Origin: Sphagnum magellanicum
Taxonomy: Eukaryota; Streptophyta; Sphagnopsida; Sphagnales; Sphagnaceae
DNA length: 64,000 nucleotides
Reading direction: 5' to 3'
NCBI GenBank assembly: GCA_021904315.1
Contig: CM038923.1
Coordinates: 4,650,001-4,714,000, forward strand
A model generated the notes under the pieces. The model did no database searches. It was given only the letters and a program-made list of their open reading frames with translations, and was not told the DNA's origin. Made by a program: the position numbers and the translations under genes. Of the stretch, positions 4,660 to 64,000 are shown in pieces (position 1 is the first letter of the stretch; every line of letters starts with the position of its first letter).

Positions 4660-5640
4660 ACATTGTTATTAGTGGTTTCACTAGATGAGGGGTGTGGTTC
4701 AAACCACCCACACCACCTTCATCATCATTTGGGGGAGATTCTTTACATTATGAGACAAATTTTTCTCCAAGGTTTATCACCCCACCACTATTGTGGGACA
4801 TGGAGGAGATGTATGGAACCACCAAAAGGCCCCATCGATATTAAAAGGCAGTTGGCACCATTGAATTGGATGATTTCATCGAAGAATTTCACAATTGATG
4901 TGATATGCAACAAATGTCTAATCCCCAATTGTTCACACCCTTCATGGCATGGAAAGGTTTGTTTCAACATTTGGAGGGGTTAACTATGGATGATTTTCAT
5001 GTATTCAAATGTGCCCATAAGATTGAAATTGAAGAGTGGCAACTATATTGGTCTCCCAATTATGTTTATATCACTAGGGGAATTATGGCCCCAAGTGGTG
5101 CAACAACAACTCTTGGCATTAGTTCGACAAGTGGAAACGGAAATGCTAGTGGTAGTGGAGCTGTTAGAAGTGGTGGAACTACTAGGGGTGGCAATGTAGG
5201 GGCATCCACTAGTACATGGGGCCATTGCCTGTATTTAACCTGATTATGGAATTTTTCTATGAGTTGCAACAAAATTACCAAGGGGTTAGGACTAAAATGT
5301 TGTAGAGTTTATAGGACTTCTAACATAAGCCACATGAGAGTTTGCGAAAGGCCTATGCACGGATGCATAAGTTGATCATAATGATACAAGGTGTTTAAAT
5401 GCGGATCAAAGATTTTTTTGTGGAGCTAGTTTTTTGGGATTAGTGGCACCAAATGAGATGATGCCACATATGTCAAGAGATCATGAGCCATGGGCAACAG
5501 ATGATGGAAACCATGTTATGGTTCCAAATCTTATTGAAATGATTTCCATAGTTGCACTAGTGATAAGAGTTAATATGTAGGTGCCAAAACCATGAGGTGC
5601 TGATGATAGATTAGATCCTCAACATGGTGAGGCTTAATGC
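4660..5640 (+). pseudogene. gag-like region of Ty3/gypsy fossil
   Basis: The segment lies at the expected gag position. It encodes aromatic- and Gln-rich helical peptide near 4,900-5,070, a Gly/Ser/Thr-rich linker near 5,090-5,215, and a charged helical stretch near 5,290-5,390 of the kind found in gag capsid regions. No zinc knuckle was found. Assignment rests mainly on position relative to protease and RT and is tentative. It is fossil sequence. Confidence 0.4.
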
Positions 5641-6179
5641 CAAGTGTAGTTCCCACAATCATTTGTGTTAACAAACACCATTTTCAATCCCATTGGAGTG
5701 TTAAGGAAAATGCCTAGTTTTATTTCTAGGTCCAAAACACCAATAAGTTTGATGGGGGTGGCCAAAGCAATTTGTTGGGCACCACTATTTTCAGCTAAGA
5801 CATTGGTCATTTTAGGTATTCAATTAACAAACATGTTTTGCCTGACAGCCACATTATGTGAGATTGGTGGAACACCAAAAGTGATGGTTAGGTTTGAGGA
5901 CACTTTTGTGCTTTTTGTAATTCCCCATCCAATTTCTAAGGCCAATCACATGAAGGTGTCCAAGGTTCAACCTGAATCTTGGCATATGGCTATGGCCTAA
6001 CTTCATGACCTTCCATCACAACCAGCCATTGATCAAACTAATGTTATTCCTGGGGCTGTGGTTGTGCATAATGAAAAAAAAAATGGTTTAGTTGAGGGGG
6101 CATTGGCACACCAATATTGACCCCTTAAGGTGTTGTAAAATTTTGGTGTTCAACCATTGATGTTAGGCAAAGTTGATGT

Positions 6180-6470
6180 TGATGGTCTTGGATTGACCAA
6201 TGTCGAGCTTGACCCATGCCCATATCACATTTTGACATCCATGGGTGGGTCAGAGAAAGCACAAAGGTTAACCAAACAAGATATTGTGATTTAGATTAAT
6301 TTTAATAAGCTAGTAGATTACATTATTGTGCGGGTTCGAGTGGTGGTCACACATGCTACGTCTTATGACGTGTTGGTTGGAGGTGTGGTGTTGTACCCCC
6401 TAAGGGTTACCATTGATTTTTGGGAGGAAACCGCATGCTATCATCTAGGTTGACAAACAATAGCTAACCA
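6180..6470 (+). pseudogene. Protease-like segment of Ty3/gypsy fossil
   Basis: A peptide reading SYDVLVGGVVLYPL (near 6,358-6,400) followed by 'TIDFWEE' resembles the C-terminal part of retroelement aspartic proteases, where 'YDVxLG' precedes a hydrophobic strand. Its place between gag-like and pol-like sequence supports this. The catalytic Asp motif was not identified with confidence. Fossil. Confidence 0.45.
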
Positions 6471-6850
6471 TAAGGCTTCATTGCTAGTGAAATTCATTGG
6501 GGGGCAATAAGTAAAATCTAATAAATCAACTATGTTGGTTGGATTTTCAAGCCTTCAACATGGACTTGAGTTGTTAGAAGGTAATGTCCATGACCATGAT
6601 GCACCTCCAAACAGTGAATTGGTGGTGTCAAGGCCACATGGGATGCTAATCATTCTAGTTTTTCCATTGGATCCTAGGCCATCATGGGGTACCTTGATTG
6701 AACTCCAAGCATTAGCCATTCATTATATTTATTAGGTTTGGCACACTCTGCCATCACCAAGCCCATAATCACTTGTGAACCTTGGTAATGGGCCTCTAGG
6801 TTTAAGCCCATTGGATACAAGGGTTATCTAGTGGGATATTCCCAAGGATT
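6471..6850 (+). pseudogene. Uncharacterised coding linker between protease-like and methyltransferase-like parts
   Basis: The segment has protein-like composition, including an open stretch at 6,532-6,735 rich in Pro, His and Leu. It connects the protease-like segment with the methyltransferase-like domain. I do not recognise a family. It may be a linker, or the N-terminal extension of the methyltransferase module. Fossil. Confidence 0.4.
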
Positions 6851-7830
6851 GGATATGCATACTTGAGCTGTTTGGAGGCATTAGTTATGGATTAGTTTTA
6901 GTTTTATAGTTGGACATCCTAGTCTGGAAATACCATTATGTGGAGAAGGATCTACAAGCTAAACAAATTTCCATGTGGCATGTCATGATGTTGTAACAAA
7001 GGTATCCCCATTTGTTACCAGCATTGGCCATACAAGGTTATCAATGTTCTTTACTAAGCAACATCACCTTGTTGGGGGCACTACATTTGGCAAGGATTAG
7101 GCCAATTGATTTGGTCATTTCTAGATGGTCGTGCCAAGGTCTTTCACAGGCAAGTACGGGTCAAGGACTTTCCGATCCTAGGTTAGGCTTCTTTTAGGAA
7201 TTGATTTGTGTTGTGCAACATTTGCAACAATCACATATGCACCCATGTGCATATTTGTTGTAAAATGTCCCACCATTGGGGGATTTTAGGTCAATTGTTT
7301 TGGCTAGATGGTAATAGATTAGGGCTTAGATCGACAAGTTAGTGCGAGTGGATGCTACTTCAATTGGTTCATGAACTCATCGGTTCTAATGGATGTGGAT
7401 TAACCTAACACCACCAAAGGTGATCCAATGAACATATGAATTCATTCATAGGTCACCAACACACTTGGGGATGACATATTGGATCTAGGATGCCATTCAT
7501 GATTAGTTCACCATGATGACCGACCACCTTTGGTTGTGGTCAATAAGGTTGGCCCACCATGAGCAGCACTACTAACACTCTTGAGTTTTTCACATTCTCA
7601 TGCATTTAAGAATGGGGGCCCAAGGATGATTTGGGACTCTAAGTCATTTAGTATGGAAAAACTCAATGCAGATGAAAAGGAACGGGCCATGGGGTTCCAC
7701 ACTTGCACCACAACTGCGTAAGGCATTTTTGAAAGAGCCCATAGGCGAATTTTGGGGCAAGTTACGGATCTCAACTACTTCACATGGATTTTTAGTTTGG
7801 TTTTGGCAAAATAATTACATTTTGGCTAAT
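6850..7830 (+). pseudogene. C5 DNA cytosine methyltransferase-like domain inside Ty3/gypsy fossil
   Basis: Methyltransferase signature motifs occur in canonical order. Motif I (SAM-binding 'ILELFGGI') lies at 6,859-6,882, followed by a 'YHYVEKDLQAKQ' stretch at the motif II position. Motif IV lies around 7,102-7,170, with 'PIDLVIS', a Cys-Gln-Gly core and 'GQGLSDPR'. A motif VI-like 'NVP..GD' segment is near 7,265-7,290, a motif VIII-like His-Arg/Trp/Asn segment near 7,370-7,400, and motif IX/X-like sequence ('NADEKERAMGF', then 'GQVTDLNYFTW') near 7,665-7,790. In active enzymes motif I binds S-adenosylmethionine and the motif IV Cys attacks cytosine C6. About 320 codons make it a bare catalytic module without regulatory domains. 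The motif order is unpermuted, unlike plant DRM enzymes. Broken and not functional here. Confidence 0.8.
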
Positions 7831-8263
7831 CACATCCACCCCATCTCCCCATCTTTCACTTGTTGCACCTTTTGTTGGGTCAACTATGGTGGTGCAAGGG
7901 GGGGGGGTGATGTTACAGCATGACAAATACATCCTTAGCAATTATGAGATCAGGGATGCTAACAGACATTTATGGGTGTGGAATAAGAAATTGGTGATGT
8001 GGGTGCACATAGGACATGATGGTCCCTTTCCACATTTTGCATAGTAATCATAGGCCATGCCCTCAACCTTGGGTGTTGGGGATGTTCCATCATCCCAACC
8101 CAATGTATAGGTGACTGCAAAAATATGAAACCCAGGAATTGGCCCAACAGTTATAGGAGGTGAGGTGCATGAAGCATGATAGATAATACAAGATTTCATT
8201 AGATGTTTTGCTTTTAGTTTGAAAAAATCAGGTTAATTAAGGGGACAAGAGGTTCGAATCGTA

Positions 8264-8960
8264 TTGGAAGATGATAATCTAATTTTCAAACGACCTTACA
8301 TGTTTAATGAGGTGGAAAAAGTTTTGGTTCAAGCTCAAATAGTAAAGTTGTTGGATGTTAGTTTGGTGGAATTGTCTAGGGGTGAATATGTTTCAGCAAC
8401 AGTGATGCCAGCCAAGAAAAACATTTTTGGTAATTGGATTGAACACTACATGTGTGGGGATTATTGTCTGGTGAATAAATGGACTTGCTTAGACAAATAT
8501 GCCATGCCCCTATTGGAGGAGATTTTTGATGCCCTTAGACAAGCCAAGGTATTTAGTACCTTGGATTTAAGGTTTGGTTACCATTAGTTGCCATTGAGGA
8601 AAGATGATAAGGTCAAAACAACATTTTGGGGAATTGACCCCCATGGGAAGGATTGTTTGTATTAATGGAAGTTTTTCCCATTCGGTTTGAAAAATGCCCC
8701 TACAAAATTTCAAAAGGTCACGTGTTGGCGGGTCTTGGTTTTGCCAAATGCTAAATTGATGATATCATTGTTTTTAGCTTAACCTTAGGAGATCATATGC
8801 ATCATTTGCAAGAGGTGTTTGGAAAACTTAAGGAACATACCCTTACGTTTCATCCAAGCAAGTGTTGATTTTTTCATACTCAAGTAGAGTACCTGGGTCA
8901 CATGATTTATCTAGGTGGATTGGGGGTTCAGAAGGCCAAGGTTGAGGCCATTTCACAAGT
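8264..8960 (+). pseudogene. Reverse transcriptase of Ty3/gypsy fossil
   Basis: The segment encodes recognisable Ty3/gypsy RT blocks. These include 'RGEYVSATVMPAKK', a 'MCGDYCLVNKWT' block and 'YAMPLLEEIFDAL', then 'VFSTLDLRFGYH' near 8,549-8,584. Downstream are an 'FPFGLKNAPTKFQKV' block and a region equivalent to the 'HLQEVFGKL' helix. This is the best preserved part of the element. Fossil. Confidence 0.9.
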
Positions 8961-9139
8961 TCCCCAACCAATAGATGTTAATTGGTTATGAACTTTTATA
9001 GGCTTGTGTAATTACTACTAGAGGTTTGTCAAAGGTTTTAGTAGCATAACCAAATTTTTAATCCAACTAACGTAGATTGACCAAAAGTTCATTTGGGATG
9101 AATCACAAAAATAGGCCTTTCAATGAAAATAAGGCTTTC

Positions 9140-9545
9140 ATCAGCCCCCATTTTGAGGTGACCCATCCGAGGATGACTGTTCCAATTGCACACGATTAAA
9201 GTACTTTAAGGTGAAGAGTTGTGCTTATCCAACTTGATGATGATGGTCGAAAGTTTGTGGTGGCATATGCTAGTCGGTCCAACAACAAAACAAAGGCCAA
9301 GTATAGTTCATATGAAGGGGAGTGCCTTGCAGTTGTTTAGGTTGTTTCATCATTTCGATGTTATCTTTATGGTAGTCCATTCATTTTGATCACCGATCAC
9401 CAACCTTTGAAATCCCTTATGGCATTAGATTGACTCACAAAAAAGTTGGCCAGGTGGGCATTTATCTTACAAGAGTATGATTTTGATATAATTCACAAAC
9501 TTGGTAAAGTTAATCGAGATGTTGATGGGTTGAGCTGAAACCCAA
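9140..9545 (+). pseudogene. RNase H of Ty3/gypsy fossil
   Basis: Recognisable RNase H blocks of Ty3/gypsy pol are present: 'FVVAYASRS' near 9,255, 'KYSSYEGECLAVV' near 9,300, 'ITDHQPLKSLM' near 9,390 and 'GKVNRDVDGLS' near 9,505. The last is the usual end of the domain. Fossil. Confidence 0.85.
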
Positions 9546-9879
9546 GTTTTAATGAAGAGGATACCATTGGGGCTTGTTAGCATGGTGATGGTGATTTGGA
9601 GGCGATACTAGGATGGCATGCCTTTGCATACCTTTGTACCTTATTGGGGTTGTTATAGGGATGTACCTCAAACTAATATGAATGATGGGGATCCCCATGA
9701 TGTGGACATGGAGTCGAAAGGCAATGGTGTTTTGGATATTTATGATGATGCACCTATCATTGTATATTTGCAAACAAATGAAGTTCCAATTGGATTAACA
9801 CCCAAGGAAAGGGACCATGTTGTGCATAGGGCCAAGCAGTTCAAATAGGAAGGTAACTTTTTCCTATAGATGTGGATAG

Positions 9880-10520
9880 ATGGACAAGTGAAGGTTGTGC
9901 CTTGCCCAGAACAATGTGAAAGCCTCGTGAGGCATGTTCATGAGGAGTTGGGCCATTTTGGGGTCCAATAGACATATAATTTGCTCTAGACACAATATTG
10001 GTGGTAAGGGATGCATTTGCAAGTTCAACAATTTGTTTTTAAGTGTATGGTGTGTGATTGAGTTTGGGCATCTTTCAATGCACCTACTCTTCACCTAAAG
10101 CCCTTACCAATTATGGGGCTTGGGTACAAATGGAGTTTGGATTTTGCCGGTCCATTGAGATTGACACCTGAACATAACCAACATGTTTTGGTTATGATTG
10201 AACATTTTACCAAGTGGTTGGAGTTGGTTCCATTGTCAAATCATAGCAGTGAAGAAGTAACATATGCATTTTTGGATAGGGTATTTAGTAAGTTTGGGCC
10301 TTAGTTGAAACTCTCACTATCCAAAGTATAAAGTTCTATGGGGAATTTTAATAGTTGTGTGAAAAAGCATTGTTTGATCATCACATGATTTCACGAGACC
10401 ATCATGAAGTAGACAAGTTAGTTGTGTGGATGGTGCAAACAATGAAGCAGGGTATGTGAAAGTATGGTCTTCACAAGGGCCATATTTGAGGTTGGGACTT
10501 ATAGTTACCATGGCTAGCTA
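9880..10520 (+). pseudogene. Integrase of Ty3/gypsy fossil
   Basis: An HHCC zinc-binding region ('HVHEELGHFGV' near 9,930, then a Cys pair near 10,035-10,060) is followed by the DDE core start 'WSLDFAGPL' near 10,134 and 'FTKWLELVPLSNHSSEEV' near 10,206. A 1-2 kb coding tail continues to about 11,500. Fossil. Confidence 0.8.
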
Positions 10521-11024
10521 TGGGGTATAAGTTTAGTTGGCAAGTTTCTCTTTTTTCTTTTTTACCATACTTCTTATTGTTTAGCTGTGAGCTTGAGTTA
10601 CTAGCTTCAATTCAACGATATGCAATGGCAGTAATCAACATGGATGATCTTAATGTGTGGATTCAAGCATGTGAGCAACGAACTGCCTTGTTCTGATGTG
10701 TTATGCCCATGGCTATGGAAAATCTAGTAATTGCCTAACATTGGGATACACTGCATTATGCTACTATATGTGGAGGTGGTTATCAGCCTCAAATTCAGAA
10801 GTTTGAGCAAAGAAATTACGTTCACCTATAGCAGAAAACATTGACTACTTTGGATGTGACTACAGGATGTGTTATTTTACATGTGCGGAAGGTCTTACCT
10901 TTTTGAGTGTTATTGTTGGATGGCCAAGATGGTCAGACATGGAAGGGCCATATGCACAATTGTGCACCATGTCATCTTCCCAATGTGGATGGCCAAATGG
11001 ACCCATTTGTAGATGTGGTTCTAG

Positions 11025-11180
11025 TTAGCTTATGATGTATGTTGTGTGGGCAAGTTTTGGGAGTTGCCATTATGTTGATTTGTGATAAGTGTTCTCGAGT
11101 TGGCATATGGGATGTCTGATGCCACCAATGGAATAAATGTCAGTTGGCAAATGGTTTTGCCCTCGATGCACCCAATAGAC
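11025..11180 (+). pseudogene. PHD-finger-like Cys/His cluster in the integrase tail
   Basis: Downstream of integrase, short peptides 'CMLCG', 'LICDKCSR', 'WHMGCLMPPME' and 'GKWFCPRCT' occur in the order and approximate spacing of a C4HC3 PHD finger. PHD fingers read histone-tail states. In chromoviruses a chromodomain can sit at this position and help target integration. The assignment is by pattern only, and the element is a fossil. Confidence 0.6.
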
Positions 11181-15560: not shown

Positions 15561-15731
15561 CCAAAACCATTCAAACCAAAAGCCTTTCAAAAACCAAAAC
15601 TTTAATTCTAACAAACTTTGCATTCATACCATAACTTTGTACAAGGGGAGGTGTTTTTCAAGGTCACAAACACCCCCTTATATACTAACCAAAAGGAAAC
15701 TAGTCAAGAAACTTCCTAAAGCTTATTCACC

Positions 15732-16312
15732 ACATGGTTCCCCAAATAATCAAAAGGAAACAAAATCACATGGTTCCTCATGTGATTCCACAATCAATCA
15801 CAAGGAAACAAAATCACATGGTTCCCCATGTGATTCCACAATCAATCACAAGGAAACAATATCACATGGTTCCCCATGTGATTCCACAATTAATCATAAG
15901 GAAAAATAATCACATGGTGCACATGTGATTCCATAATTAATCACAAGGAAACAATATCACATGGTTCCCCATGCGATTCCACAAGTAATCACAAGGAAAT
16001 AATATCACATGGTTCCCCATGTGATTCCACAATTAATCACAAGGAAACAATATCACATGGTTCCCCATGTGATTCCACAATTAATCACAAGGAAACAATA
16101 TCACATGGTTCCCCATGTGATTCCACAATTAATCACAAGGAAACAATATCACATGGTTCCCCATGTGATTCCACAATTAATCACAAGGAAACAATATCAC
16201 ATGGTTCCCCATGTGATTCCACAATTAATCACAAGGAAACAATATCACATGGTTCCCCATGTGATTCCACAATTAATCACAAGGAAACAATATCACATGG
16301 TGTACATGACAT
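15732..16312. repeat. 48-bp minisatellite with CACATG/CATGTG hairpin units
   Basis: About twelve units plus a partial one, with unit starts near 15,769, 15,817, 15,865, 15,913, 15,960, 16,008, 16,056, 16,104, 16,152, 16,200, 16,248 and 16,296. The right half is almost homogeneous and the left half more diverged. Each unit contains the inverted repeat cacatgg-ttcc-ccatgtg followed by an AT-rich spacer ending in 'aatcacaaggaaac'. Because 48 is divisible by three, open frames run through it (16-residue repeat HMVPHVIPQLITRKQY). They look like by-products of the repeat rather than a gene. It lies about 1.8 kb beyond the 3' end of the P450 gene. Confidence 0.95.
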
Positions 16313-17990
16313 AAGTCAATGCACATAACCAAATTATGGAATCCTACCACTCAATTTACCCCTTCAAACAATTACCTAAGTAATTGTGTAATTATATTAA
16401 GTTACACACCAAGTTACATGTCCACACTCTAAACATCAAAAAAATCCGTTCCAATCTAAATAGTCTACACACTTTCATAAAAAAAACCGGTTCACCTAAT
16501 GTGAAACCGGTTCTAACAAGGTAAAACTTTCAAAAGTTGGATCCAATGAGATAGTCCCTGTCCATGTGGGGGCACGGCCCAACAAAGATGGATTGGTGCA
16601 AGTTTTGACGAAGTTCAAAGATTGGATACTTTTTACAAATGGAACAGTCTTGGGAGCTTTAGGGATGGACCCTAAACCCTAAACCTATCCAGCATGATGG
16701 TGGAGGCAATCACATGACGTACTAGTACATCAAGTGGTTGTACAATGGTTGTTGGTGTGGGGAGCTTGCCTTTGGGTAGGTTATGCCAATGTAAGGTTCA
16801 GGTTTTCATTTGTGCCTTTCTTTTCCATGTGTTGATTAGCACTTTCAATTTTTCCTGGATGGAGCTCTCCTTTCAGATATAATAGAACAATTTATGGAGT
16901 TGTTTGACAAGTGTTTGAGAATTGGAGTGGCAAAACTTGGTTTAAAAAAATTTGGTCACTAGCTTAAATTGCTTGAGTTACAAGTGAAAACTAGTATTAC
17001 AAGTATTAAGCACAAGCAATCTCTAAAAGTCCATAAAATTCAAGACAAAAGAACCACATGAACAATGAATAAAAAACAAATTGACAAATTATGTCAGGGA
17101 GTTGAACCTTGTCGCAAGGACACTACACCCAATGGCAACACATGACTTTGACTTGCAAGTCACACATTAGTTTTAGTGATACGAAAAAAATCAACTAGAT
17201 TACGGGAGGGAACTATAAATTTATCTAGAACTCAAATTAGTCAACATCATGGAAATTAAGGGTTGCTTTTGGCAAAATTCAACCTACACTTGAATTATCA
17301 CCTTAGACCTCACACACACAATTGGCACAAGAAATTCTTCGGAACTAGTCATACTTAATGCCCAAATTTAAAACTAAATTAACTTGTAACACATTGGGAA
17401 AATTCCTAAGAGAACCCATGCATCAGCAAATGGAAAGTGTTAGAGGGAAATTTAGATACCATTGAACCTTGATGCAACAAGGTAATTGCACGTAAGGTGG
17501 ATCACTTTTAGTGAATAAAGGTTTTTTTTGTTAATGTTTTTTTAACATTTAATTTTTGGGTATAGGTTTTTTTTATTTTAAGGTATCATATATTGAGTCC
17601 TTGTAACATGTTTGGAATGAACTCAATAAACAAAACTGTTTTATATGAAGGTGCATGATAACATGATTGTCCATATGCAATTATTTCAAAAGTTCATTTT
17701 TGTATGTTTGGCGTATATTTGTGATGTAATATTATTATGTATGTGTTCAAATTTAAGTTGTCAATGTGAAACCATTTCAAAAAGTGACATATATTGAGGA
17801 TTTTACTAGATGCTTATTGTATCCCAATAGATTGTACCTTACAAAAAACTCCGATGCAACATAAAAAAATGATTCACTCTAACTTATGTCCACCTAGTAG
17901 CAAAAGCGCATATATTCATATTAGAAAATGAACCAAACATGCTAAACATTTACAGTGCAAAAATTAAGATGTGTGAGGCTTGGGCATGGA
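16313..17990. other. Intergenic DNA downstream of the P450 gene
   Basis: No gene, RNA gene or clear repeat is recognised. The stretch presumably includes the 3' UTR and terminator region of the minus-strand P450 at its right end, but no convincing polyadenylation signal was identified. Confidence 0.5.
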
Positions 17991-18065: not shown

Positions 18066-21000
18066 CTAATGAACTTTGAGTGGGAGCCCCTTTTCGAAGA
18101 TAGGCATTGGATTGTAGGAGACTTTCTCATTTGGGTGAACAAGTGACCACTCATAATTGAGGACCAGGTAGTGCAAGAAAACCATGGTTGCAGTTTTTGC
18201 AAACTCATTGCCAATACACGTATGTGGTCCACCTCCAAATGGTACAAAAGTGAAAGGTGGCGGTGCTTGCTTAAACCTGGATGGATCAAATTTTGTGGGA
18301 TTAGGGAAAAAAATTGGCGACATGTGAGAGCTCCAAACTGTCCAAAATATCTGCCACATAGACAAATAGGAGGGTGATCATTAGCTTTTTTCAAAAAACG
18401 AAGATGCATTGGCACCTTAGACACCATCATGGAATATCTGGTAAAACATTGAAGTTGAGTGCATGAAATGGAATGGTGTAATAATCAGCAGCTGTTGAAT
18501 GGACCTTGAAAACATACCCATACAAGTAGTAGAGAATATATAAGAGAACACATAAAATAAGTTATGTTTTCCTTGTTTTTGGGTTGCTAGTTACAGTGCA
18601 AGGTAGGTCTTATATTTGTAAACTTTGAACCCATAAAACAGCTCTCTTGGAGTGGGGAGTTTGTGAAATTACTGCCCCCCAGGCAGTAGCCAAGGGTGGT
18701 TATTCTGGCACCTTGGGGGCAGTTATTTCATGAACTCCTGGCTTTGAGGGAGTTAGCCCCTGAATGATTACTTGTGAACTGCTTGATGAAGCTGCAATGA
18801 ATCCACAAAATGCATAATGAAGATGGGATAAATTCATAGAATGCTTGATGAAAACACCTCACAGAGAAAGAAAACTCCCTCCTACCTCCTGGGAGGGAAA
18901 ATTTCCTTCATAAATCCTGCTCCTTCTAGTGTTAGAAAAATGGCCAAGGGCTTATGACTAGGGCCTAGCTCCAATTTCTGAAGCCCACACAAATATTACC
19001 TTACATCCTTTTGGAATCCTGAATCCTCCATACTCAAATTCTTTGATGGATTCGCGGAATGCCCCTGCTGCAGGGGATTGTAATCGTAAAGTCTCTTGCA
19101 TCACCCACCATGTATATTTCATTTTTTGTGTGTCTTCCCAATTTAATGGCGCCCCAGCCTTTACTTTTGCTATCTCCTCTTGCTCTGTTAAAAAAAAGCA
19201 GACATGTGAGCCATTTGGAAAACACAAATAATGTCTGGATGCTGAAAGAATTGCAAAGGACAGTTTTCCTAGACATTTGAAATTACAATTTTCAAAGCAT
19301 GATTTTCAAAGCATAAATGCAATTTGTGAAAAAGAAAAACTTGTAGTATAAATTGTGGAAGATAAAATTTGGTCATGTCATAAATTATTATAATACCTTT
19401 GACAACCTCATGCAAACAATGTGGATTTAGAGACAGATACTTCAGGATAGCTGCAAGGGTGATACTGCTGGTGTCATGGCCAGCAAACAAAAACAAAACA
19501 ATATTGTCTTTAATTTCCTCATCTGTAATCAGGTCCCCTTGAATGTCAGGTCTGTTCTGCAATACTGATAATAGATCATGGTGCCCACAATCTTGGCCTT
19601 CTTTGATAGCCTACAAATACTACCAACCATATTAGTACACAAATGAGTAACCAAAAAACTGCATGACAATTTTGCATTAAGGCAACCATAAACCTCTATG
19701 AGAATTCATGAAATGGTCTTGTATTGGCTTCCTTGAGAATTCATTAATTTCTGAAATTGCCAGATTTAGACAATATGTTCCAGTGGGTATAGCCAAAAAT
19801 TTGTAAGATTCCTAATTATTTCTATTTTTCTCTCTGCTGTGTCAACATCAACTTTAAAATTTTAAAAATGACTTGGAAAAGTTTTGATTTTGTACTTTGT
19901 GCCTCCGAGATATGATTGTGCCCAATGTCTGCAAAAGGCTTTCTCGAGCAAGCCTAGCCTTGTGGTAATTAGTGCCCGGAAAATCAAGGGGTAATTGCAT
20001 TATTCCTCGAAGATGCAGTTCAATATCATGTGCCATAGAATTGAATTCTGGCCCATCTTTGATACTCAAAAATAGATCAGACACCAAAGAGAATGTGAAT
20101 TTTTTGAGAGTTTCCACACCCATGACTTCCTCCTTGTTTTCCCAAAATTGATCCAAATGTGATCTCACCGTTTGATCCATTCTGGGCACAAAACTTTGCA
20201 ACCCATCTGGCCCAAAAAAGGATGCAAAAATACGACGGGCTTTCCTGAATAACAATAATGATAATATCCCATGAAAACCAATATAAACCCAAGTTAAACC
20301 CCTGATCAGTATCCATGAATTTAACCAAGGCCTTCATTTTCAACCAAGGAAATTTTTTCATGATTTGCACACAAACCTTGATAGCTGGAAATTTTTGCAT
20401 ATAGATCTATAATATTATATCCATGAACTCATCACAGTAGATCATGCAGTAAGCTGCGAGTTCTCAATTTTTGCTTATAAAATTCATGGTTTAGTTCTAC
20501 CATCCAGTTAAGATATGATATGCATAGGTTTCTAATTAGTGTTGGGTTAGTTTGCTTACTTGTGTTCTTCTCCTGTTTTGACTGTAAGGGCGTGTCGACC
20601 AAGAAGTTTGGCCACAGATGGTGGCCATGAGTTTTTGACTAGCTTGTTCTCGTTTGCGAACAAAAACTTATTGCCCTCTGGTGCACCCAAAATTATGGTC
20701 AGACAGAAGAGAAGATGGGTTTTGAATATCTGCATGAGCAACAACAATAACCAAATCCCACTGTAAGACTCCTCAAGAAAGAAGATCACATCCAAATTAA
20801 TGAGATTCATACAAATATATTCTGATCAGGTGATCACTTGCAGAAGATGCTGCTCAACAACACCTATGTGCACACAAATGATGATCAAATCTGAATCAGG
20901 ACTGAACAATGCAAACGGAGATGGACAGAGATGGTCAAACAAAAAGCGTCCGTTTCAACTGACTGAAACGACTTGAGAGCATAGGTTTAGCAACTTTCGA

Positions 21001-21068
21001 GAGAGAGCTGCCAAAGGGGAATATATTGTCATGTGGGTGCAAATGATGAAGTCATAATGACCAGAACA

Positions 21069-21106
<38 letters not shown>

Positions 21107-21614
21107 GTTGCAACAAAAAGTGTGCTTTTCAATGGGGTGAAACGGCTTGACCATGAGTTTAGCAACTATCGAGACAGAGAGAATAAAAGCTCATATACTG
21201 CCATGGGGTGCAGGAGTCATGAACCTCTCCATACTTGGCAATACGAGTGTCGATGAACTCTATTGATCTGTTGGCTCTTGCAGCGCTCAGAAACTCCAAA
21301 GTCTCCCCCAAGAAAGGGAGGCCACAACTGCCTGGAGGCAAGGGCGCTTTAGTCTTCAACTTGATATTCCCAGCTGCTGCATCAACCGACTTATAACTGA
21401 TCGTATTCCGCCTCCTCTGCCAAACCAACCAGCCGGCCCACAACGCAGTAGCTACTGCTATTGCAATAACAGTGCCGACTAGTGCAGCGAATCCCACCTG
21501 GAGCTTGGCTCCTGTCTGATGATCTAGTACTACTAAGTCTGAATTACCAAATCCTGCACCACTCTTGTGATCAGCAGCATAAATATTCAGTCCCTCTGCA
21601 GCTGCTGGACCCAT
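18066..21614 (-). CDS. Cytochrome P450, clan 85, CYP716-like, six exons, apparently complete
   Basis: This is a heme-thiolate monooxygenase of the plant CYP85 clan. Relatives (CYP716, CYP728, CYP725) oxidise triterpenes or diterpenes at the ER using P450 reductase. Exons on the minus strand: 21614-21225, 20729-20560, 20244-19896, 19610-19397, 19184-19000, 18350-18066. All introns are GT-AG, with phases 0, 2, 0, 1, 0, giving 530 codons plus stop. Visible parts are a hydrophobic anchor (about residues 39-65), LPPGS (92-96), I-helix AGHDTSS (346-352), ExxR as ETLR (405-408), FDPSRF (457-462) and heme loop [10 protein letters not shown] with Cys481. The start is the first Met after an in-frame stop (21654-21656). 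The 38-residue tail before the anchor is unusual, since the family is usually about 480 aa. No lesion is seen. Subfamily and substrate are uncertain. Confidence 0.93.
18654..18740. repeat. Short foldback element in P450 intron 5
   Basis: Two imperfectly complementary arms of about 25 bp ('ggagtttgtgaaattactgc' on the left, and its near-complement ending 'tttcatgaactcc' on the right) enclose about 30 bp. The structure resembles a small MITE or hairpin inside the last intron (18351-18999) of the P450 gene. No target-site duplication was defined. Confidence 0.5.
20936..21230. repeat. Diverged tandem duplication across P450 intron 1 and the exon 1 donor
   Basis: Copy A (about 20,936-21,064) and copy B (about 21,110-21,230) share 'caacaaaaag.gt', 'gaaacg.cttga', 'tttagcaact.tcgaga' and 'gtgcag/agga.tgaa.gtcat' in the same order. 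They are offset by about 170 bp. Copy B includes the exon 1 splice donor at 21,224-21,223; the equivalent position in copy A no longer reads as a donor. An (AG)n run separates them. Confidence 0.55.
21074..21104. repeat. (AG)n microsatellite in P450 intron 1
   Basis: A perfect AG run of about 15 units. On the transcribed strand it is a CT tract inside intron 1. Confidence 0.95.
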
Positions 21615-22557
21615 TTCAACTGATTCCTCAGGCAGCTTCCCAAGATTATTAAATTACTTACAACCCAAATATCCAACGGAGCTTGATCTGAAAGACAGCT
21701 GCAGGATCACTGTATGTCGGGGATTCTTCGGAAAACGAATTATGAAATCGTGAAACACTGGAGCAGCTGATGATCACAAGCACATTAGTGCAACATGAAT
21801 GTCACAAGATGAATAACCATAACAACACTACCACGGTGTGTGATCCCCGACCAATCCTATTCACTTCACAGATGATCAATACATATGTGCAGGAGAAGGC
21901 AGATGGATCATGTCCATGAATCTCTTGCTTGAACATTACATATATTAAAAGACGTCCTGACGTGAAGCATCTCGCCATCCATCTGTCTCATCATCCATCT
22001 GGACTGATGCAGCTATGTCATCCCCACTATTTAAAATAGAAGCATAGGGGCTTCCATGTGACACATCATTTTAGCTTATATATGTGACAATGTAATTTTA
22101 GGCAAAGTACTTGAAATAAAATCAGAAAAAAAAACCACCAAAAAAAGGGCCAGTGTGTTCAAATGTAAGTTAATTCCAATTTTAGAAAATATCTTCTTAG
22201 CAGGCCAACTAAGGCTCATGCAAACCTGAGCACCACCTCCTGAGAAAAAACCCCTCCTTCAACTTGGAATAAAAATGTTGTGCCTGCCCAAGTCCATGGT
22301 AAGCCTTCTCATTGGCTGCATGACTTTATTTTTAAAAAAACTCTTGATCACCATTTTTAACCTGGGCTAATAATAATACCCCTTCCTAAGAGCATGGGTA
22401 TCCATATTATTGCAATTCATATTTACTAGGATAAACCAGCTAGTGATCGAACACTTAAGCTCTCAGGGCAGGCCAGATCCAAGGGGAAGGTTCAATTGTT
22501 TTTGGTGCTCAAACAAAACTTCAACCCGTTCTATTGGTGCATCTGGTTACATATAAT
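21615..22557 (-). promoter_or_regulatory. 5' region of the P450 gene
   Basis: This is non-coding sequence directly upstream of the P450 start codon. It contains an in-frame stop at 21654-21656, a possible TATA box (TATATAA on the minus strand at 22,082-22,076, about 460 bp from the ATG), and a diverged partial copy (about 21,938-22,015) of the repeat unit at 22,558-22,977, including a GACGTC palindrome. No transcription start can be fixed from sequence alone. Confidence 0.35.
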
Positions 22558-61048: not shown

Positions 61049-64000
61049 TGTCATGCTCATATGCATGGCCTCATACATGACAGCGAGTTACAGGCATGTA
61101 AATCATGCTTTTAAGGTTAATGTACGTTCTTAGGTTATTATACGCTATTAAGTGTTTTAGGGTTATGGCTTGTTTAGGGTTTCAGCTTTGTTGACGGTTA
61201 TATAAAAGGTCAAGCTCTTCCTTTCTCTTGTTAATTTTTCTAGAATTCCTTTGTTAGGGAGAGTTTCCTCCATAGTCAGACTAGATTTCTAGATGCTCAC
61301 AACGGCTATTACACAGGCACCGTTTACATACACTATGTTTTCTTTCCTTCTTTTCAATTTAATTTTAGAAAAACCGTTTTTTGTCGCTTAATGTTAAAAG
61401 TGGCAAATTTTTCTTAACTTTGAGTTTCTTGGGTTTCTTTTGCTTATTGGTTTCTTGTGTTCTTGAATTATGTTACTTCTTCTTATTTTTTTATTCTTGT
61501 ACTACAGCTATAACAAAATCAACAACAACCATAACTAGCAACAACGTAAGCAAAGGAAAAGGACATCGAAAACAAGCTACAAGCTATGAAGTTTTCAATT
61601 TCGGAGCTTTGGAGGGAAGAAGGAGTGAGCAGCTCCAAAGCTTGTTTTACTACCAGCTTTAAGTCTTGGGAACACATACACACACACACAAAGTTTGCTT
61701 GTAGTACAAGATCTACACCAAGTGATGCAACCCCACATACACTTGCTTCCCTTGTACATGGGTTTTGAAGTTAGCATCTGGGTTGTACACTCTTGTGTGT
61801 TTTTGAGCTTGCAATCATGTAGTGAGTTGCCCTTGTAGCAGCTTTGGGAATTTTTTTAAAAAAAACATGAAGTAGAAGAAAAATAAAATTTCTCTCTTCT
61901 TTTTTGTAAGCCATCGCCACAAAGCTTGCAGACGCAGACTGCTTTGTAATACCGTCATCATCACAATTGTTATTTATTGCCGTCCGTTGTTCATTGTCGT
62001 TTGTCATAGTTCCATCAATGGTTCCATCCAGTTCCTTCCGTTCAATTCTATCCGATTTCATCCATCGAATTTTGTCCGTCCGACCCCTTCCGTCCACTGA
62101 TGTCCATCCATCGTCGTTCATCCCCGTCGACACACCGTATTCTTCAAATCATATGTACTGCGTACATACGTATCCGATACCTTTCCATTATGGTTGCATT
62201 TAATTGCATAGGTTATGTTAAAACTTTATAGCTAGTGCTTTGTATTACTACAAAATTTTGGGGCATGCAACAACACCATGTCCTTAGATGATGAAAACAC
62301 TACGTTCAACCAGAACCGAGGTATTAGGTACAACGTAACACACAATCATTTGAGTTGATTTTTTTGAGCTCATGATCTTCACCATGGTACCATCAAGCGT
62401 CTACAGCTCCATCATCATCTAATACAACTTCTAACAAGAATTCAAGTTCAGGCTACACTACATCAACAGTACATTACAGTTCATTTGGAAGGGTTAATCA
62501 GTGGGGTATGCCTACTACCACACCAACTTTCACACCATCACCATACATTCCGTTGTAAACCATCACCATATACACCATGGAGGTCAACAGTTCCTCTAGG
62601 AGAATTGAGAAGTTCAACGGAAGGCCAAGTATTTTTTTTCAAAAGGAGTTCAGGGCAATTTTCTCAATTATGGTTTGTGAATTGGAGTTCAAGTATGGCA
62701 CTAATTACACTAAGGTGTTCGCATTCAAACAATTGGCTTGTTATGTGCACTATGAAACATTGGATGTCTACGAGCAACATTCTCCAAGGATTTTGGGCGT
62801 CACCCAAATCCCCAATCCAATTTATGCCACAACCATCACCACCACCTCTCAAGCTGCATTCCAAACTGCTATTGTACATCATGGGATTATGCCCAATAAT
62901 CTAGATCTGATATCTACTTTAGTAAACCTTTTTCTTCAACAATTCATTGTTGCTATCGCAAACATTCCTCCCACCATCCATGCACCAACTTTTGCTAATC
63001 TAGTGGGGGAATTATTTCGAGTTCTTTAGCTGGAATTTTTGGTTAAGAGTTTTGAAAAAATTGTGTAGCTCACCACCTTTTTTCGACAAAAAGATGAAAC
63101 CCTCAAGATGTTTTATAAGAGGCTTCTCAAGTTCAAATAGGATATTCAAAGCATCACAGATTTGGAAGTTGTCCATCAGTATTTTCGTTCGTTGGAAGGT
63201 ATTCCAACACTCCATGCGTAAATTTTGCAATGGGTTTTTGCAAAATTTGGAGATTTGTACACTTTGCTAGATGTGTATAACATTTTTTGAAAAGCTGGAA
63301 CTAGCTCATCCACACAATGAGGCTAGTACTATGAGGCCTCCATCACATTCAAGGCCTTAATCTCCACCAGTTATGCCAACCAGATCATCACATTCTTTTT
63401 CAAGGGCTAAAGCAGTGCACTCGGCTACACCCATCCTACTTTCTTACAACTATTGTGGTAATGCTACCCACAAAGCTAGTGAATGCAACATTCCTTCCAA
63501 GGATCTTTTTTGTGGGGGACATTATGAAGTTGTTTATTTTATCAAGTTTTTGGAATAGAAGCAACTTCGATTACCATGGCAAAATTTACTAGCATTTTCT
63601 GCTCCCCTTCAACTAACTTGCTAATTTAAAAGGTAAGTCTTCCCAACCAGCTAGTCATGCGCAACCTGTACAAGGTTCAAGATCATGGGAGGGACCTCTT
63701 AGGTCGTTCTAATGGCCTCTCACACGATGCCATGGTTGGGGAGTATATTATTTCCAATGCACACAATTCTAGTCTCACACCAAAATTTACCACTTTTTTT
63801 TTCCCTTCCTACTTCACGACACAAGAGGCTAGTGTGGCACCCAGAGTTTTTGCCACTAGGTAGGTAATTCAGATTGATGGACTCGCATCTAGTTTAAGTC
63901 CTATTACCAAGGCTAGAGGAGCTTGAGTAGTCATGCCACAATCTTTTCATCCTCTCAACACGGAAGAAAAACGCACCTTGTTGGTGAGGGGGAGGAGACT
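61049..64000 (+). mobile_element. 5' part of a second Ty3/gypsy LTR retrotransposon fossil, cut by the window end
   Basis: A probable LTR (61,049-62,252, TGTCATGC ... CTACA, with TATATAAAAGG near 61,199) is followed by a TGG-starting primer-binding-like segment (62,259-62,274). A gag-like coding region then runs from an ATG at 62,278 to beyond 63,900. LTR limits are inferred from one end only, because the 3' copy lies outside the window. The element is broken in several places, but gag is better preserved than in the element at 4.6-11.7 kb, so it may be younger. The pol part is not in view. Confidence 0.65.
62278..63600 (+). pseudogene. gag of the second Ty3/gypsy fossil
   Basis: An open stretch of 150 codons (62,577-63,029) encodes 'EKFNGRPSIFFQKEFRAIF' followed by an Ala/Pro/Thr-rich 'SQAAFQTAIVHHG' region, consistent with a gag matrix/capsid N-terminus. 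Helical capsid-like sequence with 'DLEVVHQYF' and 'YTLLDVYN' follows. Near 63,450-63,490 there is a CCHC knuckle-like segment ('NYCGNATHKASEC'), the RNA-binding nucleocapsid signature. Fossil. Confidence 0.6.

Follow-up and report, generated by a model that had tools for sequence, protein, structure and literature searches.

A DNMT3-like methyltransferase inside a decayed Ty3/gypsy element of Sphagnum magellanicum, and its relatives in bryophytes and green algae

Why would a retrotransposon keep a cytosine methyltransferase of its own? The question is raised by a stretch of 64,000 nucleotides from the moss Sphagnum magellanicum (assembly GCA_021904315.1, contig CM038923.1, positions 4,650,001 to 4,714,000; hereafter the window), in which a decayed Ty3/gypsy element was found at 4674-11170 on the forward strand by a combination of Pfam and tblastn, with remnants of gag, protease, C5 cytosine methyltransferase (MTase), reverse transcriptase (RT), RNase H, integrase and a PHD finger. 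The original prediction, made from the letters alone, was that a Ty3/gypsy fossil here carries a C5 MTase of its own, placed between protease and RT, on the same strand and in canonical motif order, and both the domain order and intact relatives bear this out. We consider it quite probable that the element is a dead copy of a moss family of DNMT3-bearing Ty3/gypsy elements, that members of its clade would make a precursor ending at a leaky stop, and that the MTase may be packaged and methylate the element's complementary DNA (cDNA). The remnants, with stops as asterisks, are as follows.

4674..5395 (+): gag remnant, from tblastn of the Marchantia protein P0050 in two pieces (4674-5171 and 5225-5395)
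6020..6440, limits approximate (+): aspartyl protease remnant, in the region to which P0048, P0046 and the S2 protein align by tblastn
6829..7461 (+): DNMT3-type MTase, motifs I-VIII, a single frame with stops, from the reading of the forward frames and tblastn, with tree placement
6859..6894 (+): MTase motif I (S-adenosylmethionine binding), ILELFGGISYGL
7108..7146 (+): MTase motif IV, DLVISRWSCQGLS, with the catalytic Cys codon at 7132-7134
7252..7275 (+): MTase motif VI, YLL*NVPP, with a stop where Glu is expected
7366..7404 (+): MTase motif VIII, GS*THRF*WMWIN
7470..7811 (+): C-terminal part of the MTase, motifs IX and X, in a second frame; 43-53% identical to P0046, P0048, P0049, P0050, P0001 and S2, and 33% to L037
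7665-7700 and 7743-7775 (+): MTase motifs IX/X, NADEKERAMGFH and RRILGQVTDLN
8042..8050 (+): remnant of the leaky-stop site, TAG TAATCA, aligned with TAG CAATCA (L063) and TAG CAACTA (L001)
8207..9123 (+): RT remnant, Pfam RVT_1 (1.4e-8 and 1.2e-6) and tblastn
9194..9562 (+): RNase H remnant, Pfam PF17917 (3e-26) and tblastn
9729..10759 (+): integrase remnant (H2C2 and rve core), PF17921 (5e-12), PF00665 (2e-5; 25.1 bits, below the cut-off of 32.6) and tblastn
about 11074..11170 (+): PHD finger remnant, Pfam PHD at E 0.033, below the cut-off; the alignment of L037 extends into that protein's PHD finger

The MTase spans 6829-7811 and is split over two frames (6829-7461 and 7470-7811). By reading all three forward frames of window positions 6800-7930, we located the segments that we take to be motifs I, IV, VI, VIII and IX/X: motifs I-VIII share one stop-broken frame, IX/X sit in another, and the order is canonical. 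The earlier argument that an unpermuted order speaks against a captured DRM gene therefore stands, and a DRM origin was rejected, as motifs I to X are canonical and not permuted. The residue before the catalytic Cys is Ser in the window. The PF00145 profile, proposed at the outset as a check, had no significant match in the window (E 0.16; 11.8 bits, below the cut-off of 22), though intact relatives align strongly: in tblastn searches, the protease-MTase part (5.5-7.8 kb) was matched by P0046 at E 6.7e-128, by Marchantia P0048 at 5e-108 and by L037, which is from the same genome, at 4e-48 (values on the window are sums over neighbouring pieces), with 37-53% identity to the nearest relatives (P0046 and Marchantia P0048). 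Because the alignments with proteins of relatives begin in gag (4674) and reach the PHD finger (about 11100), we read the weak PF00145 score as decay rather than absence. No Pfam match to an aspartyl protease was found anywhere in the window, and Rfam gave 0 matches there. Neither terminal repeats nor a target-site duplication was found for the fossil; the A repeat of the S1 subfamily (see below) matches the window well only at 61049.

We then considered the genome as a whole (438,994,042 bases in 31 contigs). The MTase segment of the window occurs in at least 42 places, from 40 of 218 candidates scored, and the others are 76-87% identical to it; the window itself is within each count, and at least two copies entered as two pieces. 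At least 29 of the 42 places have a protease segment on the same strand no more than 6 kb upstream (in at least 23, within 60 bases of the window's spacing), and an RT segment lies downstream of at least 29, with at least 25 of these at 150-450 bases (300 in the window). As protease and RT are found at the expected spacing at many of these places, the MTase belongs to the element. An independent insertion missing from other copies, which the original prediction had named as the outcome that would overturn it, was looked for and rejected, since the MTase is at the same place across the family. More broadly, at least 124 PF00145 matches in the genome exceed the cut-off (123 of 387 candidates scored); among 30 such loci that were excised, 23 have frames matching the family profile strongly and at least two (L002 and L005) look like host DRM exons. 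There are at least four MTase-bearing subfamilies: S1 (the L037 type; 484 first-look candidates, of which 40 were scored, all at least 95%), S2 (the L001 type; 4 copies, 97-100%) and a further subfamily with 24 matches at 64-73% to S2 are among them. Treating the fossil as a sole case was thus too narrow, as one of these subfamilies has long open frames and recent insertions, and the presumed seed-plant setting gives way to a moss.

The young S1 subfamily includes L037, a single frame of 2379 codons running from gag through the PHD finger (gag with two CCHC motifs, identified by eye; aspartyl protease at codons 728-824, MTase at about 957-1300, RT at 1487-1641, RNase H at 1704-1833, integrase at 1952-2120 and PHD at 2330-2374). 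Repeats in the arrangement A-ORF-B-A-B (ORF, open reading frame; A about 311 and B about 178 bases) were found, whole or in part, at 8 of 20 S1 loci of 10 kb, with A-repeat pairs 96.8-99.0% identical. The repeat pair was not found at the other 12 of the 20, some of which are cut by their own ends. The unit starts with TGTCATG and finishes with CACGACA or nearly so (TG..CA), a G-rich polypurine-type tract is found immediately ahead of the first B in each of 7 copies inspected, and all 6 copies with both ends in hand have a perfect 4-bp target duplication, for which offset controls gave 0-10 chance matches of 899. Taken together, the rve integrase, the 4-bp duplications and the split repeats describe a unit whose repeats are DIRS-like but which is inserted by a DDE integrase. 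Membership of DIRS itself was rejected, as the integrase is of the rve type, not a tyrosine recombinase, and leaves 4-bp duplications. One way in which A-ORF-B-A-B could arise is the opening of a circle with two long terminal repeats, each being B-A, at the B/A junction. The S1 MTase is under purifying selection at the level of RNase H and integrase: the ratio of nonsynonymous to synonymous rates (dN/dS) is 0.26 for the MTase (bootstrap 0.23-0.32), 0.28 for RNase H and 0.22 for integrase, and the neutral null is 0.61-0.79. The window also contains the start of another element of the S1 kind, which begins at 61049 (+) and runs past the window end (61049-64000), with an A repeat at 61049-61359 (74% to L034) and gag at 62559-63998 (69-84% to L037 by piece).

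What kind of enzyme is it? An MTase of DNMT3 type is indicated by the sequence profile, by a single sequence and by the predicted fold alike. The catalytic domain of DNMT3A/B is the nearest known domain (20-27% identity), with which it shares unpermuted motif order, a predicted fold whose nearest match is DNMT3 and, in S1, an LLGR-type motif X. Neither ADD nor PWWP was among the Pfam matches of the element polyprotein. Pattern scans of prokaryotes and phages returned 12 weak matches in IMG/VR and at least 3 weak matches in GTDB plus L063, itself such an element, and no close prokaryotic or phage match was among those listed. A bacterial or phage origin is accordingly not supported by these pattern scans; of the two sources first suggested, the DNMT3-like one held and the bacterial or phage-like one is the less probable, as DNMT3 is nearest. 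L063 is the GTDB contig CADCWO010000201.1, which is binned as a Synechococcales cyanobacterium and carries a DNMT3-bearing gypsy element; it is probably eukaryote DNA inside a bacterial bin. The family differs from DNMT3A/B in a recurrent Glu in place of Pro at the catalytic motif. To our knowledge, this proline is near-universal in C5-MTases and supposedly invariant. Among 105 members, the catalytic Cys is preceded by Pro in 59 and by Glu in 36, the remaining 10 having another or an undetermined residue; the full MTase tree implies at least 8 changes between Pro and Glu and the reduced tree at least 4. The catalytic Cys, the Gln, the Glu-Asn pair and the Arg are invariant, across members that are only 34-44% identical to S1.

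In S1 and others, all domains are fused in one frame. In S2 (L001, L003 and L004), the protease-MTase frame stops 85 codons past the MTase at TAG CAACTA, and RT follows in the same frame in L001 and L004 and in another frame in L003. In L063, whose MTase is 45% identical to that of S1, TAG CAATCA is followed by an in-frame RT-RNase H-integrase ORF. Both stops fit UAG-CARYYA, which is the read-through context of tobacco mosaic virus (TMV). This context occurs at 10 of 33,944 stop triplets (both strands, all 66 loci), and 5 of the 10 are post-MTase stops, namely those of four S2 copies (including L009, with TAG CAACCA) and L063. Similarly, exactly 4 of 193 frames of at least 300 codons end in it, and these are L001, L003, L004 and L063. 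In the window, TAG TAATCA (8042-8050) shares an alignment column with the leaky stop, where L017, a relative, has the same letters and L020 has TAA. For proteins that end after the MTase, the frame end alone was seen, not the stop codon; 20 of 22 group with S2 and the window in a single clade (support 97, full MTase tree), and the two exceptions are the Haematococcus gene model P0030 and P0074, on a long branch. In a more careful MTase tree (47 of 105 members plus L063 and 2 window pieces), the 14 members chosen from this clade group together with both window pieces (99/99). Putative read-through at the UAG after the MTase is what this context suggests. S2 loci end short of gag, and the MTase frame of L063 contains a CCHC motif, so in L063 the MTase would be made with Gag rather than with Pol.

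How far does this family extend? With the S1 MTase as query, 31 proteins were found; the majority also contain RT, RNase H, integrase and PHD, and those with a named host come from Haematococcus, Monoraphidium and Chrzof1 (read as Chromochloris). With P0001 as query, three gene models of Marchantia polymorpha (MARPO_0008s0049, MARPO_0204s0011 and MARPO_0020s0163) joined them, and an RT search brought in Closterium (best 120 of 1330 proteins). The M. polymorpha proteins P0048, P0049 and P0050, annotated as hypothetical proteins, are the protease-MTase parts of retrotransposons and could be taken wrongly for host DNMT3 genes. The 78 proteins of the two MTase searches show two positions of the enzyme: after the protease in 24 (22 protease-MTase and 2 full), and between RNase H and integrase, or in fragments of that order, in 53, with protease only in 1. 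P0030, one of the 22 protease-MTase proteins, groups with the RNase H-MTase-integrase type. In RT trees, built from 100 of 132 usable RT rows (the 32 left out lacked an MTase, and many were from Cordylochernes scorpioides), elements with either position are united in one clade, apart from other gypsy elements (96 and 99 by the Shimodaira-Hasegawa-like approximate likelihood ratio test; 100/98 in a careful tree of 47 of the 100 rows and 2 window pieces). This clade takes in green algae, Closterium and this genome, and the Marchantia elements join via the MTase. The RNase H-MTase-integrase type is a group of its own in both the RT tree (100/99, including two rows without a recognised MTase) and the MTase tree (100/99). 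The MTase tree was rooted on DNMT3A alone, whose branch is 3.2 changes per site long, and its members are the elements and not any green-plant host DNMT3.

One capture and one relocation is the simplest account of these trees. A more speculative reading, which we hold rather less likely than not, is that one gypsy lineage took up a DNMT3 before the chlorophyte-streptophyte split or close to it, kept it and moved it once, and that in the branch containing the bryophyte families the leaky stop places the MTase on the Gag side, at a structural-protein dose per particle, so that cDNA might be methylated before insertion. Independent captures of DNMT3 in streptophytes (protease-MTase-RT) and chlorophytes (RNase H-MTase-integrase) seem unlikely to us: such captures would explain the two insertion points, the second of which is its own group, and no green-plant host DNMT3 is present to split the joint MTase clade, but in the RT tree the two types share a single clade (100/98), outside which lie 10 other gypsy elements and P0191, and both MTase types are 34-44% identical to S1 while DNMT3A sits on its branch of 3.2 changes per site. 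That the window MTase is an unrelated gene or a bacterial insertion beside a gypsy fragment would account for the miss by PF00145, yet is barely credible given the family-wide co-location, the intact single-frame relatives and the lack of a close prokaryotic or phage match in the pattern scans.

A cycle can be proposed for these elements. Living relatives would make a precursor with protease and MTase, and in the clade of the window a leaky UAG after the MTase would let a minority of ribosomes into RT, RNase H and integrase. The MTase may then be packed in the virus-like particle and methylate the element's own double-stranded cDNA before integration, while the PHD finger, whose closest counterparts with a solved structure belong to KMT2C/D, KDM5 and KAT6, would read histone tails at the target and might bind H3. 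Copies methylated in advance would enter chromatin resembling host heterochromatin or gene-body DNA, and their methylation would shield the cDNA or curb damage to the host. A precedent is SymbioDIRS, for which cDNA methylation by a packaged DNMT3 has been proposed and whose DNMT3s carry out de novo CG methylation in yeast, according to the text of PMC5890265. Should the MTase instead act chiefly on RNA or on host chromatin, for example by silencing rivals or damping the element's own transcription in trans, the ECQ of 36 of 105 members could signal a changed substrate and the likeness of the PHD finger to those of KMT2C/D, KDM5 and KAT6 would fit; we doubt this, as an MTase inside the precursor and under selection equal to that on RT and integrase suits a step of the replication cycle, and its predicted fold is nearest DNMT3. 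Still less probable is a passive passenger, a structural linker for polyprotein folding whose catalysis is dispensable. The youngest family does have ECQ rather than PCQ, with at least 4 to at least 8 changes between Pro and Glu on the trees, but against a passenger are the invariant catalytic residues at such divergence and the dN/dS of 0.26.

Several observations weigh against packaging of an active enzyme by a continuously inherited family. The Glu for Pro before the catalytic Cys in young S1 could impair catalysis, and KnitGypsy-Dnmt3, the only gypsy relative tested, showed no methylation in yeast, a result that its authors, in the text of PMC5890265, call inconclusive. The 20 S1-type loci were picked for long frames with a PF00145 match, a choice biased towards intact MTases; the MTase is without a stop in 9 of 20. 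Within the RT clade, P0124, P0175, P0192 and P0193 have no recognised MTase, and P0191 falls just outside it. These five are gypsy elements with a PHD finger and no recognised MTase; they may have lost the MTase, may encode it in a different frame or may show the state before capture. Relative to the S2 protein, the protease-MTase part of the window has 21 in-frame stops, 9 of which are at Trp, Gln or Arg, codons that become stops by C-to-T or G-to-A changes. Observed/expected CG is 0.19 in the fossil, 0.26 in window 12000-61000, 0.36-0.45 in S1 and 0.25 in S2, and the corresponding CHG values are 0.32, 0.59, 0.79-0.85 and 1.22. As its CHG loss is marked and its CG loss barely goes beyond that of its surroundings, the fossil is likely an old copy, methylated for long, and the loss of both kinds of site is consistent with long methylation by whichever enzyme. 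CG hardly separates it from the rest of the window or from intact S2, however, S2 is without CHG loss, and loss of CG and CHG is already expected from host silencing alone.

Elsewhere in the window, units of about 48 bases, repeated in tandem in 11 registered copies, occupy 15683-16349 within a 142-codon open frame, and two open frames at 19854-21653 (-) resemble, by eye, pieces of a cytochrome P450 gene. Pfam, run on two frames of window 12-26 kb, matched 0 families.

How do these elements compare with those already described? The precedents first cited, in Klebsormidium (a charophyte) and dinoflagellates, are correct (PMC5890265). The closest described element is KnitGypsy-Dnmt3 of Klebsormidium nitens, from 2018, which by the account in PMC5890265 is likewise a gypsy element with a DNMT3 in the Pol frame, DIRS-like repeats (here in S1 only) and purifying selection on its MTase. 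It is described from a charophyte alga with few copies, whereas here we have bryophytes, 484 S1 candidates, a PHD finger, a leaky stop and 4-bp duplications; the comparison is by description, as no K. nitens protein was recognised by name in the searches, and the charophyte Closterium falls inside the clade. The main text of PMC5890265 does not contain the words moss, Sphagnum, PHD or split. Its SymbioDIRS-Dnmt3 and SymbioLINE-Dnmt, of dinoflagellates, are also retrotransposons with a DNMT, SymbioDIRS having a DNMT3 and split repeats, but as reported there they are DIRS (with a tyrosine recombinase) and LINE elements, unlike the present ones with DDE integrase and target duplications. Passages of PMC6338049 cite Ty3/gypsy and DIRS elements bearing a DNA cytosine methyltransferase (DCM) for green algae and charophytes, and state that land plants, such as tracheophytes, are without them. 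Our chlorophyte members (Haematococcus, Monoraphidium and Chrzof1) fit these DCM-encoding Ty3/gypsy elements, and the Marchantia and moss elements contradict the wider wording of those passages on land plants. A 2025 survey of DNMTs notes that some DNMT3s are embedded in retrotransposons (Copia and DIRS), citing earlier streptophyte and dinoflagellate reports (PMC12344493). No moss or liverwort DNMT-bearing gypsy element was named in the titles and abstract openings found, a scope outside which lie subscription papers, preprints and supplements, including that of PMC12344493, which may hold bryophyte copies. New here are the land-plant members, the TMV-like leaky stop between MTase and RT, an expression device for which no earlier description in such elements was met, the two MTase positions and the recurrent change of Pro to Glu at the catalytic motif.

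Hosts fight transposons chiefly by cytosine methylation, and an element that keeps its own DNMT3 is therefore a paradox, which can now be approached in land plants with developed methylomes and genetics: members occur in the genetic model Marchantia, and young, near-identical copies are present in the Sphagnum genome. From the leaky stop one would expect the enzyme to be made at a specific dose, and the repeated appearance of ECQ raises the question of what the proline of C5-MTases does. For bryophytes, the claim printed in the passages of PMC6338049 noted above, that land plants lack methylase-bearing transposons, needs correction.
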